IMG/VR virus record: IMGVR_UViG_3300010883_000097
Span: 1 to 41,341 of that record
Length of the DNA: 41,341 nt
DNA from: a virus
Strand: one strand, 5' to 3'
Within the stretch, counting starts at the first letter, position 1. The number at the start of each line of letters is the position of its first letter. A model generated the notes under the pieces. It did no database searches, was not told where the DNA came from, and saw only the letters and a program-made list of their open reading frames with translations. A program made the position numbers and the translations under genes. Shown here one piece after another: positions 694 to 5,727 of this stretch.

Positions 694-722
694 TTGCCTT
701 TCGATGCCTAAGTCCGTATATT
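694..722 (+). promoter_or_regulatory. Host-type promoter (TTG-N20-TATATT)
   Basis: TTG at 694-696 is followed after exactly 20 bases by TATATT at 717-722. The same arrangement occurs at four other places in the window. It resembles the Bacteroidota housekeeping promoter (TTG near -33, TAnnTTTG near -7). The start codon of the secreted protein at 728 follows only five bases later, so the transcript would be leaderless or nearly so. Confidence 0.6.
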
Positions 723-727
723 ATAGT

Positions 728-1099
728 ATGAAAAACATTTTAACAACCCTCCTATTATTATCCCTATTAACCACCGCTACACTAGCACAATGTAACCAAC
801 ATGTGTTTAGCTCAGTGGGTGCTACTGAATGGACAGACTTTCAGTACCAGGACTGTGATAGTACCATGCACAACTTCGTATTACCTACCGGTGGTTACAC
901 TACAATTTACTGTGCTGAGATAGGCACTGCGTTCGCTCTCAATGGCGATGGGTTTGTATATCCATTACTTACAGAACATCCTAACTATCCTTCTTGTATA
1001 CAGGCGGTGTGTCCCGGAGATTTAGATGGTGATGGTGTGGTAGCTGTCGAGGACTTATTAATACTATTATCAAGTTATGGAGTGCCATGCGTAGATTAA
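728..1099 (+). CDS. Secreted small protein with dockerin-like calcium-binding end
   Basis: I start at 728 rather than the in-frame ATG at 683, because 728 gives a clean Sec signal peptide (MKNILTTLLLLSLLTTATLAQ) and because the promoter at 694-722 lies inside the longer version. The mature part has several cysteines (C22, then pairs near the middle and end), fitting an oxidised extracytoplasmic protein. The C-terminus CPGDLDGDGVVAVEDLLILL has the DxDGDGxVxxxDLLxLL pattern of a dockerin/EF-hand calcium loop; only one copy is present, whereas true dockerins have two. The stop overlaps the next gene by 13 bases, so the two secreted proteins form an operon. Role unknown; surface modification or superinfection exclusion are possibilities, not shown. 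Confidence 0.7.
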   Translation: MKNILTTLLLLSLLTTATLAQCNQHVFSSVGATEWTDFQYQDCDSTMHNFVLPTGGYTTIYCAEIGTAFALNGDGFVYPLLTEHPNYPSCIQAVCPGDLDGDGVVAVEDLLILLSSYGVPCVD

Positions 1100-2292
1100 T
1101 TTACTTACTTGCCTTATGGGCACCAATCACATCGGCACAATGCGACGTAGCTATAAGTAGCTGGGACGCGACTACCGGTGATATTGTTATTGAAGCTATC
1201 AATAGCGAAAATTGCGGTTGTAATGAATTTACGTCTGAAGGCAATACTTGTGATAGTAGTGGTAGCCCTTATGTATCGAACAATACAACTGTTAGTCATA
1301 TAGTACTAGGGTTACATGTAGAAGGGTTAGACTATAATTGGGGATGTACAAGTGCATTTAACCACCCGGGTTGGACATTCAAAGCATTCACCCTTTTCGG
1401 TAATCAGGTACTAGAGAGTGGTGACACTTGGAGTGCTAATGTGTACGACACTTCTTTAGCAAGTGACTGTTGGGCTGAGATATTAGCTAATGACAGTCTA
1501 TGTACTGAGCTAGTTATATGGCAGATTAACTTGTCTCGAACGGCTTCTACAGAGGAAGGTGGATGGGCTGTTAATGGAGGAGGTGCATTACAGACTCAGA
1601 ACTACCCCGACGTGGACCTTGCTAATAACATAGCTGTGTACTGTGCTCCCGTTGCATGCGATACCGTGTATGTGGATGTAGAGGTGGTCGAATATATCAC
1701 AGATACTATTATAGAATATATTGATGTGCTTATCTACATCACAGATACTATTATAGAATATATTGAAGTATTAGTTTATATTACGGATACCACTTATATA
1801 GACGTAATAGACACCTTATGGTTAACTGAGTTTATTTATGACACTACATATGTAGAAACCATTGAGTATGTTTATATAACAGACACCGTAGAAGTTATAG
1901 TAGATAACAACATATACACAACGGATACAATAACTATTACAGAGTATATAACTCAATATATAGATTGTGAAACTGGTGAGCCTTGTGATGGAATCATAGG
2001 GTGTGAGGACAACTCTATCTTTGTACCAAATACCTTCACACCAAATAATGATGGCATCAATGATACCTTTTATGCAGTAACGGAAGCTGAATGTTGGTTA
2101 ACATGGAACTTACAAATCTTTAATCGTTGGGGAGGTATCGTATGGGAGACCAGTCTAGTAAATGATTTTTGGCAGGGCCAAAGCAGAAGTGGGCATTGGT
2201 TAGTACCTGATGGAGTTTATGTTTGGAAGATACGAGCTACTCAACCTGGAGGAGCAACCGAGATAACAGGAAAGGTAACTGTATTTAGGTGA
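1087..2292 (+). CDS. Secreted protein with T9SS type B (gliding motility-associated) C-terminal sorting domain
   Basis: A 401-residue protein in three parts. Residues 1-18 are a short Sec signal peptide (ending ITSAQ). Residues 19-190 form a cysteine-rich globular part without a recognised fold. Residues about 195-300 are a repetitive Thr/Ile/Tyr/Asp-rich stalk (units like YITDTIIEYIDV). Residues 313-401 match the gliding-motility-associated C-terminal domain: FTPNNDGINDTF, then QIFNRWGGIVW, then PDGVYVWKI. In Bacteroidota this domain directs proteins through the type IX secretion system. A phage gene using it would place its product on or outside the host surface. Translation is probably coupled to the upstream secreted protein (13-base overlap, GGAG before the ATG). 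What the N-terminal domain binds is unknown. Transfer from a host is likely but not shown. Confidence 0.85.
   Translation: MRRLIYLLALWAPITSAQCDVAISSWDATTGDIVIEAINSENCGCNEFTSEGNTCDSSGSPYVSNNTTVSHIVLGLHVEGLDYNWGCTSAFNHPGWTFKAFTLFGNQVLESGDTWSANVYDTSLASDCWAEILANDSLCTELVIWQINLSRTASTEEGGWAVNGGGALQTQNYPDVDLANNIAVYCAPVACDTVYVDVEVVEYITDTIIEYIDVLIYITDTIIEYIEVLVYITDTTYIDVIDTLWLTEFIYDTTYVETIEYVYITDTVEVIVDNNIYTTDTITITEYITQYIDCETGEPCDGIIGCEDNSIFVPNTFTPNNDGINDTFYAVTEAECWLTWNLQIFNRWGGIVWETSLVNDFWQGQSRSGHWLVPDGVYVWKIRATQPGGATEITGKVTVFR
1696..1766 (+). repeat. Tandem 42-bp coding repeat in stalk region
   Basis: A 29-base block (1696-1724) is repeated identically at 1738-1766, a period of 42 bases or 14 residues. 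More diverged copies of the same ITDT-EYI pattern continue to about 1960. The repeats keep frame and build the stalk between the N-terminal domain and the sorting domain. Confidence 0.8.
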
Positions 2293-2333: not shown

Positions 2334-2362
2334 TTGGTTCCTTAAGGATTAGTCCTTATATT
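2334..2362 (+). promoter_or_regulatory. Host-type promoter (TTG-N20-TATATT)
   Basis: TTG at 2334-2336 and TATATT at 2357-2362 with a 20-base spacer; the -7 side continues GTAGTATAA. It precedes the gene at 2415 with a leader of roughly 45 bases that lacks a close Shine-Dalgarno sequence. The spacer and hexamer match the sites at 694, 3697, 5421 and 23007. Confidence 0.6.
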
Positions 2363-2414
2363 GTAGTATAAGTTTAGAAGGAAGAAATAATAACAATTAA
2401 ATAATTAACACACA

Positions 2415-2966
2415 ATGGCAAGAGCTAAAAAAACCCCACAGTACAAGTACGGAATCGAAATTACTAAACCTCACTCGAAGGAGATGTACGCTCACAATGA
2501 AGCGATATCAGACGAGATGAAATCAAATATCGCAGAGGTATGGAAGTGGTCATATGCAAAAGCAGAAGAGCAGTTTATTAATAAATCCAGTTGTGCCTTT
2601 GACCTAGATGATGATCAGGTCGGAATGGATTTCATGGATCATGAGTATGATCAAGATGATATAGATCATCAAGATTTGGCTCAGTTGTCAAGAGCAGTAA
2701 GCGTAATAGGGTATGGTAGTGGGTTCACTATTAGAGATGTTCAGGGTCACTTTGAAAGAGATCTAGAGAATGCTGTGAACTGGAGAATGCATGAGATCTA
2801 TGAAGAGCTTTGCGATCTTGGTCTAGGGCTTGTACCAGTACTTGAGCAGGGCATGGTAGGGTTTGGCACTCCTGATTATAAATACTGGCACCAAGATGCT
2901 AAGTACATTAATCGTCACGAGCACGCTACTGTTAATAAGCTGTTTAGCGAATCTACATCTAAGTAA
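2415..2966 (+). CDS. Hypothetical protein
   Basis: A 183-residue soluble acidic protein with a basic start (MARAKKTPQYKYGIEITKPH) and a very Asp-rich central stretch around residues 56-80 (for example DLDDDQ and DQDDIDHQD). I recognise no domain or catalytic motif. It is the first gene after the promoter at 2334 and is followed closely by small genes in the same direction, so it is probably expressed early with them. No strong Shine-Dalgarno sequence precedes the ATG; the A-rich AACACACA lies there instead. The acidic stretch could contact a basic partner or mimic DNA charge, which is speculative. Confidence 0.75.
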   Translation: MARAKKTPQYKYGIEITKPHSKEMYAHNEAISDEMKSNIAEVWKWSYAKAEEQFINKSSCAFDLDDDQVGMDFMDHEYDQDDIDHQDLAQLSRAVSVIGYGSGFTIRDVQGHFERDLENAVNWRMHEIYEELCDLGLGLVPVLEQGMVGFGTPDYKYWHQDAKYINRHEHATVNKLFSESTSK

Positions 2967-2967
2967 T

Positions 2968-3072
2968 ATGAAGTATTATAACAGCGATACTGTATACGGT
3001 ACAGAGGGTTGCAGCACTGTATCCCCTGTTGTCCGCGATGATCAGGCAGTAGGCAATATAACTGCTAAGTAA
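2968..3072 (+). CDS. Possible 34-residue small protein
   Basis: An ATG one base after the preceding stop opens a 34-codon frame (MKYYNSDTVYGTEGCSTV...). The spacing of one base before it and seven bases after it fits the compact gene packing here, and otherwise this would be a gap of more than 100 bases. There is no ribosome site and no recognisable domain, so it may be only spacer sequence. Confidence 0.35.
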   Translation: MKYYNSDTVYGTEGCSTVSPVVRDDQAVGNITAK

Positions 3073-3079
3073 TCACACT

Positions 3080-3313
3080 ATGTACATTAACGGTCGTAAG
3101 ATAACGCTAGAAGATTTAGAGCAGTTAACGGAAAACTTAATTAGCTCACTTATAGATGATCTGTATATAAACATCCTGAGGGATGGTATAGAGGATCATG
3201 TACCAGGTGTTAAAAAGAAGCAGCGTTCTATCCTTAACAAAATGATAGAGCACTACGTGGAACGAGAGGAGTATGAGAAGTGTGCTACTCTCCGTGATAT
3301 GATTAATTTTTAA
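3080..3313 (+). CDS. Small protein with UVR-like helical motif
   Basis: A 77-residue protein. Residues about 51-76 (LNKMIEHYVEREEYEKCATL) have the pattern of the UVR motif, L..M..YveREeYEkCa.LRDmI, known from UvrB, UvrC and Clp proteins as a helical-hairpin interaction module. The N-terminal half is acidic and helical. No nuclease or ATPase part is present, so if the match is real this would be a free-standing adaptor. It sits in a run of small unknown genes and has no clear ribosome site. Confidence 0.65.
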   Translation: MYINGRKITLEDLEQLTENLISSLIDDLYINILRDGIEDHVPGVKKKQRSILNKMIEHYVEREEYEKCATLRDMINF

Positions 3314-3357
3314 AAACACTTATAACTAATAGCTTGCAGCTTAACTGCTAAATTCAA

Positions 3358-3690
3358 ATGGCTTACAATAGGAAGCAAAAGTACTCCTTTAGACCGGAGA
3401 TTAAAAAAACAATTCATAACCAGCACAAGCCGTTCAACCCGGGTCGTCATGGTAAGGTATGGGGCTCAATTAGGTTTGAGCATGATTGGGGGAGGCGCCC
3501 AGATGGGGATGCCACGTCACCAGTAATAGGTAAAATCTTTATCGGTGACAAGTATCACGAACTAACCTTTTCAGAAGCTAGTATGCTCAGGGATACCCTG
3601 AAGGATGCGCAGCATGCTCATAAGGTGGGAGTGAGGTTAGGTAGATCTAATCAACATGCGGGAATTAAAGATTCTGCAAAATACTTGTAA
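3358..3690 (+). CDS. Hypothetical protein
   Basis: A 110-residue basic protein. The N-terminal 35 residues are rich in Lys, Arg and His. A central part follows (GSIRFEHDWGRRPDGD), then a segment reading KIFIGDKYHELTFSEASMLRD, which looks like a short beta pair and helix. I do not recognise the family. It is preceded by a 44-base gap without an obvious promoter, so it is probably read from the promoter at 2334. A nucleic-acid contact is plausible from the charge but unsupported. Confidence 0.7.
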   Translation: MAYNRKQKYSFRPEIKKTIHNQHKPFNPGRHGKVWGSIRFEHDWGRRPDGDATSPVIGKIFIGDKYHELTFSEASMLRDTLKDAQHAHKVGVRLGRSNQHAGIKDSAKYL

Positions 3691-3696
3691 AGAAAG

Positions 3697-3725
3697 TTGC
3701 CTTTTCGCATAATCTATATTATATT
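3697..3725 (+). promoter_or_regulatory. Host-type promoter with long AT-rich leader
   Basis: TTG at 3697-3699, a 20-base spacer, then TATATT at 3720-3725. The next start codon is at 3824, leaving about 95 bases of almost pure A/T. That leader contains an inverted repeat (TTATTA 3779-3784 with TAATAA 3790-3795). I see no gene in 3691-3823. Confidence 0.55.
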
Positions 3726-3823
3726 ATAGATATTATAGAATATTAGTATTAATTTAATAAAAATAAATATAAAGAGAATTATTAATTAGTAATAAATAAT
3801 ATAGTAGATTATTTAGGGATACT

Positions 3824-4216
3824 ATGGATAAAGACAAACATAAATATATGTCAGATAAATTATTAAAACAGCAAGAGCAAGCTGAAGCATTACGTGAACT
3901 TGGTGAACGTAATCCAGATGCTGCAAGTGCTATAGATAACATACTCGCTGCATTTGCACCAGTAGACAATCTAGATAAGATACATGGATATATACAGAAG
4001 TTTGAATCTGTAGTATCCCTTATAAAGGGAAACATTATCAACAGTAAAGAGTATAACAACTTTTCAGAGGCTGAGTATACAACTGATAAGAAGACGATAT
4101 TTAACATTAAGCATAAAGTACTCTTACTTAATCAGATCGATACCCATGATATGAACCGCGTGAATAAGATTTACAAGAAACATGTTAATATTCAGAGGAT
4201 TTTAAAGGGTACATAG
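3824..4216 (+). CDS. Hypothetical protein
   Basis: A 130-residue, mostly helical, highly charged protein (MDKDKHKYMSDKLLKQQEQ start; Lys-rich C-terminus). No cysteine, membrane segment or known motif is visible. It is the first gene after the AT-rich leader that follows the promoter at 3697. Predicted helices with heptad-like Leu/Ile spacing in residues 10-60 suggest an oligomerising or adaptor protein, but function cannot be assigned. Confidence 0.7.
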   Translation: MDKDKHKYMSDKLLKQQEQAEALRELGERNPDAASAIDNILAAFAPVDNLDKIHGYIQKFESVVSLIKGNIINSKEYNNFSEAEYTTDKKTIFNIKHKVLLLNQIDTHDMNRVNKIYKKHVNIQRILKGT

Positions 4217-4225
4217 ATATTTATA
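4217..4225 (+). promoter_or_regulatory. ATATTTATA motif (putative phage-specific promoter)
   Basis: ATATTTATA lies between the stop of the preceding gene and the ATG at 4252 (26 bases downstream). This copy is followed by AAT, so the overlapping TATAAATG also comes within one base of the T4 late consensus on the + strand. It is one of eight intergenic sites of this type in the window. Confidence 0.4.
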
Positions 4226-4251
4226 AATGACTATCAATACATAAGCATAAC

Positions 4252-4902
4252 ATGGAGCATAAAGTGAAGGATGATAAGGACATATATAAGCTAGGAGTTG
4301 ATGACATACTCTCCGGTGATTCAAACATTAAATTGTTTGTATATACAGAAGAAGAGTATAGAGATTTTAGTAATGGGTTCGACGCGTCGTCCGTAAAGAG
4401 CATGTTAGATAGTGTATCTATGGCTCTCAAGATTCAACAACCAGAACAGTCTACTGTTGACTTTCTAACAAATTATATTAACACATTAAGCAGTAGTGAA
4501 TTACAGCGATTTGACGACATGGTTAAGACGTTTACAGATACTGATCCTAATATGTTATGGGATATGTTACACCTGGAAGATAAGGAGATGTATGGAACTC
4601 CTACTAAGTTCTACGAATGGCTATCCACATTATCAGATGACATTATAGACATGTATATATATAAAGCAGCTGACGGACGTAGGTTACATCCATCTAGCAT
4701 GTACAAGAACGAGCCAGCTACAACAGTAGAGATATTGGATGGATACATAGCGATCAGCTCTTCTAATCTACAGGCGCTAAATAAGTTTAAAGATAGGGTG
4801 CTTATGTCAAACAAGTGTTCTTATGAGCATCGTATTAAAACACATGATGGAATAGAGATACACAGCTACGTATTTAATATGAACGGCAATGGTACCAGTT
4901 AG
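4252..4902 (+). CDS. Hypothetical protein
   Basis: A 216-residue acidic protein without cysteine clusters or membrane segments. Segments such as DFLTNYINTLSSSELQRFDDM (near residues 80-100) look helical, and the last 50 residues look like a small beta-rich domain. I recognise no family. No Shine-Dalgarno sequence is seen before the ATG. It lies between two ATATTTATA motifs. Confidence 0.7.
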   Translation: MEHKVKDDKDIYKLGVDDILSGDSNIKLFVYTEEEYRDFSNGFDASSVKSMLDSVSMALKIQQPEQSTVDFLTNYINTLSSSELQRFDDMVKTFTDTDPNMLWDMLHLEDKEMYGTPTKFYEWLSTLSDDIIDMYIYKAADGRRLHPSSMYKNEPATTVEILDGYIAISSSNLQALNKFKDRVLMSNKCSYEHRIKTHDGIEIHSYVFNMNGNGTS

Positions 4903-4935
4903 ATAAAACATAGGTATTTTATTTTTAATATATAT

Positions 4936-4944
4936 ATATTTATA
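4936..4944 (+). promoter_or_regulatory. ATATTTATA motif overlapping a start codon
   Basis: Within a TA-repeat, ATATTTATA ends on the A of the ATG at 4944. If it acts as a -10 element, transcription would start inside the next gene, so it may serve only as an AT-rich translation-start context, or the real start lies further in. It is the weakest member of the set. Confidence 0.25.
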
Positions 4945-5420
4945 TGAAAGCAAAGAAAGACAAGGTAAGTTATTACACTGAAGTTAAAAACGGTGAGTTA
5001 TATATGGAATGTAGAGAATGCGGATCGATGCAACCTATAGGCCCGGACGTGTATGCATGTACATGTCACATATGTGTATCAGAGCAATTCCAGCAAGAGT
5101 TTCCATTTGAAGCAAACACAGGATATAAACCTTCCGGTAAGCCTAGAGGTTGGGCATTTATGAAAGAGTATGTTGATAAGGACGGTAACGTATATCACAG
5201 AGGTAAAGAACAGCCCGGGTTGAAAGGTACTATGAAACCTTCTATTATTAAACCTAAGGTTAGTAAGCCGAAGTTATCAAAGCAGCAAAAGCAACAGATT
5301 AAAATGGATGCCTTCGCTGAGATTGGTAAGCTGAAAAAAAAGCTTAAGGCTGCTAGGTTTAAAAAAGACATCAAGCAAATCAACTCAGATATTAAGCGAC
5401 AGCAGAAACTCATTAAATAG
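4944..5420 (+). CDS. Zinc-ribbon-like protein with basic tail
   Basis: A 158-residue protein. C23-x2-C26 and C41-x2-C44 (with C39 beside them) form a likely zinc ribbon near the N-terminus. Next comes the stretch KPRGWAFMKEYVDKDGNVYH, which resembles a conserved segment I associate with hypothetical proteins of marine T4-like phages. The last 60 residues are extremely Lys-rich and probably helical. The layout suggests a nucleic-acid-binding protein. No catalytic motif is visible and the exact role is unknown. The ATG is preceded only by a TA-rich tract without a ribosome site. Confidence 0.7.
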   Translation: MKAKKDKVSYYTEVKNGELYMECRECGSMQPIGPDVYACTCHICVSEQFQQEFPFEANTGYKPSGKPRGWAFMKEYVDKDGNVYHRGKEQPGLKGTMKPSIIKPKVSKPKLSKQQKQQIKMDAFAEIGKLKKKLKAARFKKDIKQINSDIKRQQKLIK

Positions 5421-5449
5421 TTGGATTATCATTTTTATGTTCTTATATT
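5421..5449 (+). promoter_or_regulatory. Host-type promoter (TTG-N20-TATATT)
   Basis: TTG at 5421-5423 directly follows the stop of the upstream gene; TATATT is at 5444-5449 after a 20-base spacer and is followed by GTATTATAAC. The leader to the ATG at 5479 is short and carries AGGA eight bases before the start. It probably drives the HD hydrolase and late sigma gene downstream. Confidence 0.6.
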
Positions 5450-5478
5450 GTATTATAACAAGCAGTAGGATACAATAG

Positions 5479-5727
5479 ATGACCCATAAAGAGAGATTAT
5501 TTAAAGCACTTAAAAGTGAGTGTGAAGCAGAAATTAACGAAGCACTATTAACAATGGATATGTGTTTTACAAAAGCAACAGCAATCGGTGAACATACAGC
5601 TGGACACTTCTTACAGGAAGCTATGAAAGCATTAGAGAAGTTAACCGACGGTAGAGATAAATTAGATACACTTGAACAATACTATGCCGCGTCATCAATA
5701 TTTAACAAGAAACAAATACTCGGATAA
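5479..5727 (+). CDS. Small helical phage protein, unknown
   Basis: An 82-residue all-helical acidic protein (for example EINEALLTMDMCFTKATAIGEHT). The pattern recalls a small conserved family of T4-like marine phages with a TMDmCF...aigeHt core, but I cannot name a function. It is first in the operon 5479-7548 ending with the late sigma gene, with AGGA as ribosome site. Confidence 0.7.
   Translation: MTHKERLFKALKSECEAEINEALLTMDMCFTKATAIGEHTAGHFLQEAMKALEKLTDGRDKLDTLEQYYAASSIFNKKQILG

Follow-up and report, generated by a model that had tools for sequence, protein, structure and literature searches.

A mobile phage gene cassette predicted to send a virus-specific protein through the type IX secretion system of Bacteroidota hosts

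The cassette and its genomic setting

The stretch of viral DNA analysed here, hereafter the window, comprises 41,341 nucleotides (IMG/VR record IMGVR_UViG_3300010883_000097) and carries near its start two plus-strand genes, DOC (positions 728..1099, 123 amino acids) and T9B (1087..2292, 401 amino acids), DOC lying directly upstream of T9B and overlapping it by 13 nt. The T9B product, for which a single scan of IMG/VR returned homologues at at least 80 viral loci, has the makings of a phage-encoded cargo protein of the type IX secretion system (T9SS), type B. Its Sec signal peptide (1087..1137, +; MRRLIYLLALWAPITSA followed by QC) has a predicted cleavage site between SA and Q in keeping with the Bacteroidetes Q-rule; there follow a conserved, Cys-rich N-terminal domain, the putative effector domain or head (residues 19–187; 1141..1647, +), supported by alignment A3, dN/dS and an AlphaFold2 model, then a stalk of TDTxxEY repeats that is variable in length and ends in YIDCETGEPC (1648..1986, +), which in alignment A1 has numerous indels and is less identical between members than the N-domain, and, at the very C-terminus, a T9SS type B sorting domain (CHU_C or gliding motility-associated CTD; 2020..2283, +). 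The last assignment exceeds the curated cut-offs of two independent models, namely PF13585 (residues 312–391; 62.6 bits, cut-off 27, E=4e-17) and TIGR04131 (residues 313–399 of 401; 38 bits, cut-off 35, E=1.4e-9), and in a nucleotide-level search the sorting-domain model matched the window record at 2020-2271 (E=2.7e-19) and none of 14 control genomes. Some T9B relatives score below the TIGR04131 cut-off (30.3 and 27.1 bits), and of the type A sorting domain (PF18962/TIGR04183), PF18962 has no match within the window. The preliminary description of this DNA had proposed this same succession of Sec signal, Cys-rich domain, repeat stalk and sorting domain, all of which are present in the ORF, and had placed residues 313–401 in the type B class, subject to a profile search; the significant matches to both models bear this out.

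DOC is likewise predicted to be exported, its signal peptide (MKNILTTLLLLSLLTTATLA) again being followed by QC, and is recognised as a partner of T9B by co-location, alignment A4 and dN/dS. Near its C-terminus, an EF-hand-like loop resembling half of a dockerin repeat can be read from the sequence (DLDGDGVVAVED; 1019..1054, +), and residues D98, D109, L110, L114, and G118 are invariant in alignment A4. No family in Pfam, NCBIfam or PHROG matched DOC above cut-off, and its AlphaFold2 model is poor (pLDDT 53). We rejected its identity as a true type I dockerin, as Dockerin_1 (PF00404) reached 11.9 bits against a cut-off of 22.9 and DOC has a single loop where two EF-hand repeats are required. 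A DOC homologue shares the locus with T9B at 56 of the 81 loci examined (three of these being versions with an M43 protease), so that the two-gene cassette suspected at the outset is real. It usually sits directly upstream of T9B with the same short overlap; in L048, L050-L057, and L062 it lies directly downstream, and in some podovirus loci (L012, L033, L031) an extra gene splits the pair. The gene inserted between DOC and T9B in L031 (7461-9950, 829 aa) and in L082 (6655-7944, 429 aa) carries repeats that look BspA/DUF285-like by eye, and in L082 a GroEL-like chaperonin ORF (3944-5560) lies just upstream of the cassette. In L029, the leaders of DOC (2100-2462; MKKLIYLLALWAPATYAQ) and T9B (2450-3523; MRKLIYLLALWAPITSAQ) are nearly alike, which suggests recombination between the signal-peptide segments of the two genes.

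Genes for a baseplate wedge protein, an SbcC-like protein and a terminase of the T4 type identify the window as phage DNA. This terminase shares 57% identity with its counterpart in vB_FspM_immuto, a Flavobacterium phage of 160 kb, and terminase relatives of the cassette phages infect Flavobacterium and Cellulophaga; the T4-like nature of the phage, as originally put forward, is thereby upheld. In L001, a record from a different sample, the cassette is followed by genes 2415, 3080, 3358 and so forth to 10187, up to the baseplate gene, in the same order as in the window and mostly at 79-100% identity. The order common to both records, together with the comparison with immuto, marks the cassette as a genuine accessory phage locus and speaks against a segment of host DNA or an assembly chimera, a caveat attached to the preliminary description. 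In immuto, a phosphohydrolase gene 42.9% identical to that of the window precedes the baseplate region, as it does here; its genome gave no T9B match at E<=1e-5 and has no annotated counterpart of the cassette beside the phosphohydrolase/baseplate region. As this cultured relative keeps the neighbouring gene order without the cassette, the latter is not essential.

An exact match to a Bacteroidota-type, promoter-like motif (TTG-N20-TATATTRTA) stands directly upstream of the cassette (694..725, +), a second one after it and before gene 2415 (2334..2365, +), and further copies at 3697-3728 and 5421-5452. With up to one mismatch allowed, the window holds nine such motifs versus 2.1 expected, a count that 0 of 100 shuffles reached, the pattern having been derived in part from site 694-725 itself. 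An mRNA starting from this upstream motif would be almost leaderless. L001 lacks the motif at the corresponding place, and its sequence downstream of the cassette, around the 2334-2365 copy, is conserved. The two copies flanking the cassette have AGTCCKTATATTRTAGTAT in common, which could provide homology for cassette exchange.

Conservation and spread of the family

Alignment A3, made from 36 diverse non-redundant homologues, contains 32 invariant columns in the head domain, seven of which are Cys. With median dN/dS values of 0.12 (head) and 0.14 (DOC), both are under purifying selection, and mean pairwise identity falls from 65% in the head to 59% in the stalk and 57% in the CTD. By these measures, the head is the conserved and selected part of T9B, and its invariant Cys residues and purifying selection suit an oxidised, extracytoplasmic fold. 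Structure prediction of the N-domain, which had been suggested in the preliminary description, gave a mostly-beta AlphaFold2 model of moderate confidence (pLDDT 69, pTM 0.69) without a relative in the PDB, either by sequence profile or by fold at E<=0.001. The best viral structural match was A0A7S9STS8, a 406-aa protein of Virus NIOZ-UU157 (Foldseek E=1e-9, 36% identity). A kinship of the head with tail fibres found no support, the A3 HMM matching T9B proteins only among all ORFs of the examined loci, nor did a relation to the second, Ig/CARDB-like domain of longer family members.

A scan of 84,980 species genomes with the exact peptide patterns ENCGCNE and WQINLS[QR]T, which distant cellular homologues could escape, located the head once only, on a 61.6 kb phage contig (L082). 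We rejected L082 as a cellular gene of the ‘Pseudomonadales’, since it is a misbinned phage contig syntenic with L031; the MAG assembly that holds it contains no CHU_C elsewhere. This distribution bears on the notion that T9B is a host gene recently captured by, or mis-assembled into, a phage contig and devoid of a phage role. The abundance of CHU_C in Bacteroidota, with more than 35,000 TIGR04131 proteins in UniProt (PMC11205867), would make such an origin conceivable, but the occurrence of the head at scores of viral loci versus one phage contig among the species genomes, the purifying selection and the recurrence of the gene order in an independent sample render it very improbable, and a host fragment or chimera as such was rejected on the grounds of the L001 gene order and the virus-only head domain.

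The preliminary description had called for a survey of other Bacteroidota phages, and the scan indeed uncovered the cassette in both T4-like phages and podoviruses. CHU_C was matched in 29 of 36 homologous records, at least some of the remainder cutting T9B at the record end, and complete records, including those of 160-199 kb, hold a single CHU_C domain each. Twelve family records carry the T4-type terminase phrog_2 and 26 gave strong matches to phrog_6681, which is typical of podoviruses of about 60 kb infecting Flavobacterium and Cellulophaga; none is strong in both classes. Over its full length, the window’s T9B is 65-68% identical to podovirus copies such as L002-L008, yet only about 39-42% identical to those of L044, L045, and L058, distant T4-like records with the downstream gene order in common. 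In a maximum-likelihood phylogeny built from the head domain, in which part of the T4-like labels are based on gene order rather than on terminase, the phage background switches at least five times, three of these switches being forced by well-supported branches. Judged from these comparisons, the cassette is one that has moved between unrelated phages, namely T4-like myoviruses and podoviruses of about 60 kb. At two large uncultured phage records of 635-642 kb, CHU_C-like domains with 36-42% identity to the window’s CTD were seen (LR756502.1:519118-519387, LR745206.1:27673-27903).

Exchange has taken place within T9B as well. Compared with L009, the window’s head is 83% and its CTD 40% identical, versus 80% and 90%, respectively, for L001, and most podovirus copies reach 75-83% identity to it in the N-domain but about 40-45% in the CTD. 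The identities of head and CTD are thus uncoupled, conserved heads sitting on exchangeable sorting domains, which might possibly reflect adaptation to different host barrels. Several records of 160-170 kb end inside T9B (L064:9989-10945; L074-L077:9989-10321; L079:9989-10225), the four loci L074-L077 stopping at the same residue; one reading is that the assembly broke off there because the site varies between strains.

In podoviruses, the cassette is often found just upstream of terminase/portal genes or adjoining tail-fibre-like genes, a position that would be in line with a role of T9B in the virion or in the attachment of released particles, with Sec and T9SS used for virion decoration. We regard this as improbable: tailed phages put their virion proteins together in the cytoplasm, from which the conserved Sec signal would take T9B away, and there is neither a structural gene bearing the head domain in the examined loci nor a match to a PHROG family.

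Predicted export route and possible function outside the cell

In all 97 distinct N-termini of T9B and DOC, with cleavage sites judged by eye, Gln occupies position +1 after a short-residue cleavage motif. Type B cargo of F. johnsoniae often needs a cognate PorP/SprF barrel, which is usually encoded nearby, although this is not universal. Such cargo is known to bind surface PorP/SprF-like barrels in a PorV-independent manner (PMC9143113). PF11751 (PorP/SprF) matched 0 of 27 phage records, a search in which no positive control matched and in which the records may be fragments; if the T9SS route is used, the barrel would thus have to come from the host. The Q-rule itself is peculiar to exported Bacteroidetes proteins and has been adopted by P. 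gingivalis phages too (PMC10653852). The signal peptide and sorting domain of T9B lend good support to a protein made for the Sec and T9SS routes of the host, and given established T9SS biology we consider its export through the T9SS highly probable. The infected cell would then probably display or release a virus-made, disulfide-rich protein.

According to our working model, Sec and signal peptidase I would move T9B to the periplasm and expose an N-terminal Gln for capping by the glutaminyl cyclase of the host. Guided by its type B CTD, the protein would pass through the host SprA/Sov translocon, and a PorP/SprF-like barrel of the host would hold it on the surface, with the Cys-rich beta head presented outside the cell on its repeat stalk. 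DOC, probably a calcium-binding partner, would be exported alongside. Late in infection T9B may then remodel the surface of the infected cell, the most plausible benefit being less adsorption of competing or sister phages, whether through superinfection exclusion or by keeping progeny off debris; the preliminary description had raised receptor masking, exclusion, aggregation and public goods as candidate purposes. Because the head has no structural relative and the DOC model is poor, this extracellular function is read from context alone. Surface remodelling against superinfection is favoured by the finding that mutations in T9SS and gliding genes of F. columnare lead to phage resistance (PMC9233685) and by the existence of envelope exclusion proteins elsewhere, such as Llp of phage T5 (PMC9586334). 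Taken as a whole, the reading of T9B as an effector that leaves the Bacteroidota cell via the host T9SS and remodels its surface has, in our estimate, a probability of roughly 0.6; an effect on the cell surface by itself we hold to be slightly better than an even bet, and superinfection exclusion in particular is put forward tentatively.

A different kind of action would be jamming of the T9SS, the CTD filling SprF/PorP-like barrels or the SprA channel such that fewer host adhesins (such as SprB) are displayed and the head plays a secondary role. This would agree with the dedication of PorP/SprF barrels to type B cargo (PMC9143113) and our failure to find any in the phage records, with the link of phage susceptibility to gld/spr-dependent adhesin display (PMC9233685), and with the exchange of CTDs while the rest of T9B is kept. 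Yet the most conserved part of the protein is the head and not the CTD, suggesting that it is the head that does the work, and we consider jamming quite unlikely, to a somewhat greater degree than the alternative discussed next.

This alternative arises from variants of the cassette and from other exported proteins of the same phages. L069, L071, and L072 encode fusions of the T9B head with an M43 metalloprotease of the cytophagalysin/pappalysin type, and in L039/L040 and L070 an M43 protease with DOC-like ends occupies the DOC slot. Several related records encode large, Cys-rich type A T9SS cargo (PF18962) with GCTDPxAxNY repeats, near which a predicted outer-membrane barrel is found in 11 of 42 records; searches of Pfam, NCBIfam, PHROG, and PDB returned no relative of this barrel. 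An exported thioredoxin-like protein occurs in related records as well. Together, type A cargo, barrel and thioredoxin-like protein make up a second exported module (L004:17142-20382; L027:3-3090, 3388-3771; L035:2150-6557; L070:2468-3499; L086:13332-20000), seen in podovirus and other backgrounds, including L073/G036 with a T9B fragment 86% identical to that of the window. A T4-like record of 199 kb further encodes an exported (Q-rule) DNA/RNA non-specific endonuclease (L057:1798-2445; PF01223, E=1.6e-24), a candidate degrader of incoming or debris DNA, and a similar-looking exported ORF of equal length is present at L062:1824-2471. With the protease, the type A cargo, the barrel, the thioredoxin-like protein, and the nuclease, secreted or envelope proteins form a recurring accessory theme of the cassette phages. 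T9B and DOC might accordingly be secreted, adhesive or enzyme-associated public goods, serving an exported protein-degrading system as its binding or cofactor subunits; by digestion of surface or extracellular protein this system would aid phage spread or host nutrition and would not act by blocking phages; the head-protease fusions, the proteases in the DOC slot, the large type A cargo and the one exported nuclease are all in line with this possibility. Still, the M43 domain was detected in only 5 of 44 records searched and is absent from the window and from most relatives, and we judge such a role unlikely. Behind surface remodelling by an exported T9B, the secreted proteolytic complex, jamming of the SprF barrel and a virion role follow in decreasing order of likelihood. 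The remodelling reading could be carried further, albeit as a doubtful extension: a mobile, virus-only effector family common to unrelated Bacteroidota phages, for which the T9SS is the delivery organ, with exchangeable CTDs fitted to host SprF/PorP barrels, would then join type A cargo, the phage-encoded outer-membrane barrel and thioredoxin-like protein in a programme that rebuilds the surface and excludes competitors.

Relation to known systems

Phage-encoded T9SS cargo is already known in kind. The 76 kb Cryophage, reported in 2020, encodes three type A cargo proteins, and its authors proposed hijacking of the host T9SS (PMC7468147). The preliminary description, in assuming the lack of any published phage counterpart, was too strong in view of this precedent and of the deposited NIOZ-UU157 homologue. 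Like T9B, the Cryophage proteins carry T9SS sorting domains and differ between phage variants; there, type A domains are attached to endoglucanase, GH39, and PA14 proteins, whereas T9B combines a type B domain with a virus-specific Cys-rich head and a paired small protein, and occurs in T4-like phages as well as podoviruses of about 60 kb. A0A7S9STS8 bears the same domain name as T9B (‘Gliding motility-associated C-terminal domain-containing protein [Virus NIOZ-UU157]’) and is very likely a member of the family that has already been deposited; it is represented by this database name, and no functional study of it was found in the open-access literature.

With host type B cargo, such as SprB of F. 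johnsoniae and PG1035 of P. gingivalis, T9B shares the Sec signal and the CHU_C/TIGR04131 CTD, and hence the predicted SprA/Sov route and PorP/SprF anchoring (PMC9143113). It differs from them in being a viral gene with a short stalk and a head not found in the bacterial chromosomes examined. Superinfection exclusion lipoproteins of the Llp (phage T5) and Cor type are proposed functional analogues, being envelope-targeted and blocking adsorption (PMC9586334); Llp is a small periplasmic lipoprotein that acts on FhuA, whereas T9B has no lipobox, carries Q at +1 followed by C or TC, and is predicted to reside outside the cell. No paper on a type B phage cargo was found in open-access PMC, the source covered by the search. 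Judged against the openly accessible literature, what is new here is the type B route, the virus-specific effector domain with its partner, the exchange of CTDs, and the spread over two phage lineages.

If the proposed reading holds true, lytic phages of a phylum dominant in marine and soil habitats would place proteins of their own outside the cell by way of the host T9SS, and this secretion system, to which the susceptibility of Flavobacterium to phages is tied (PMC9233685), would also be one that phages exploit. The head, DOC, and the swapped CTDs, along with close ties to cultured lineages (immuto, elemo), would then offer a testable system for phage action on the Bacteroidota surface.
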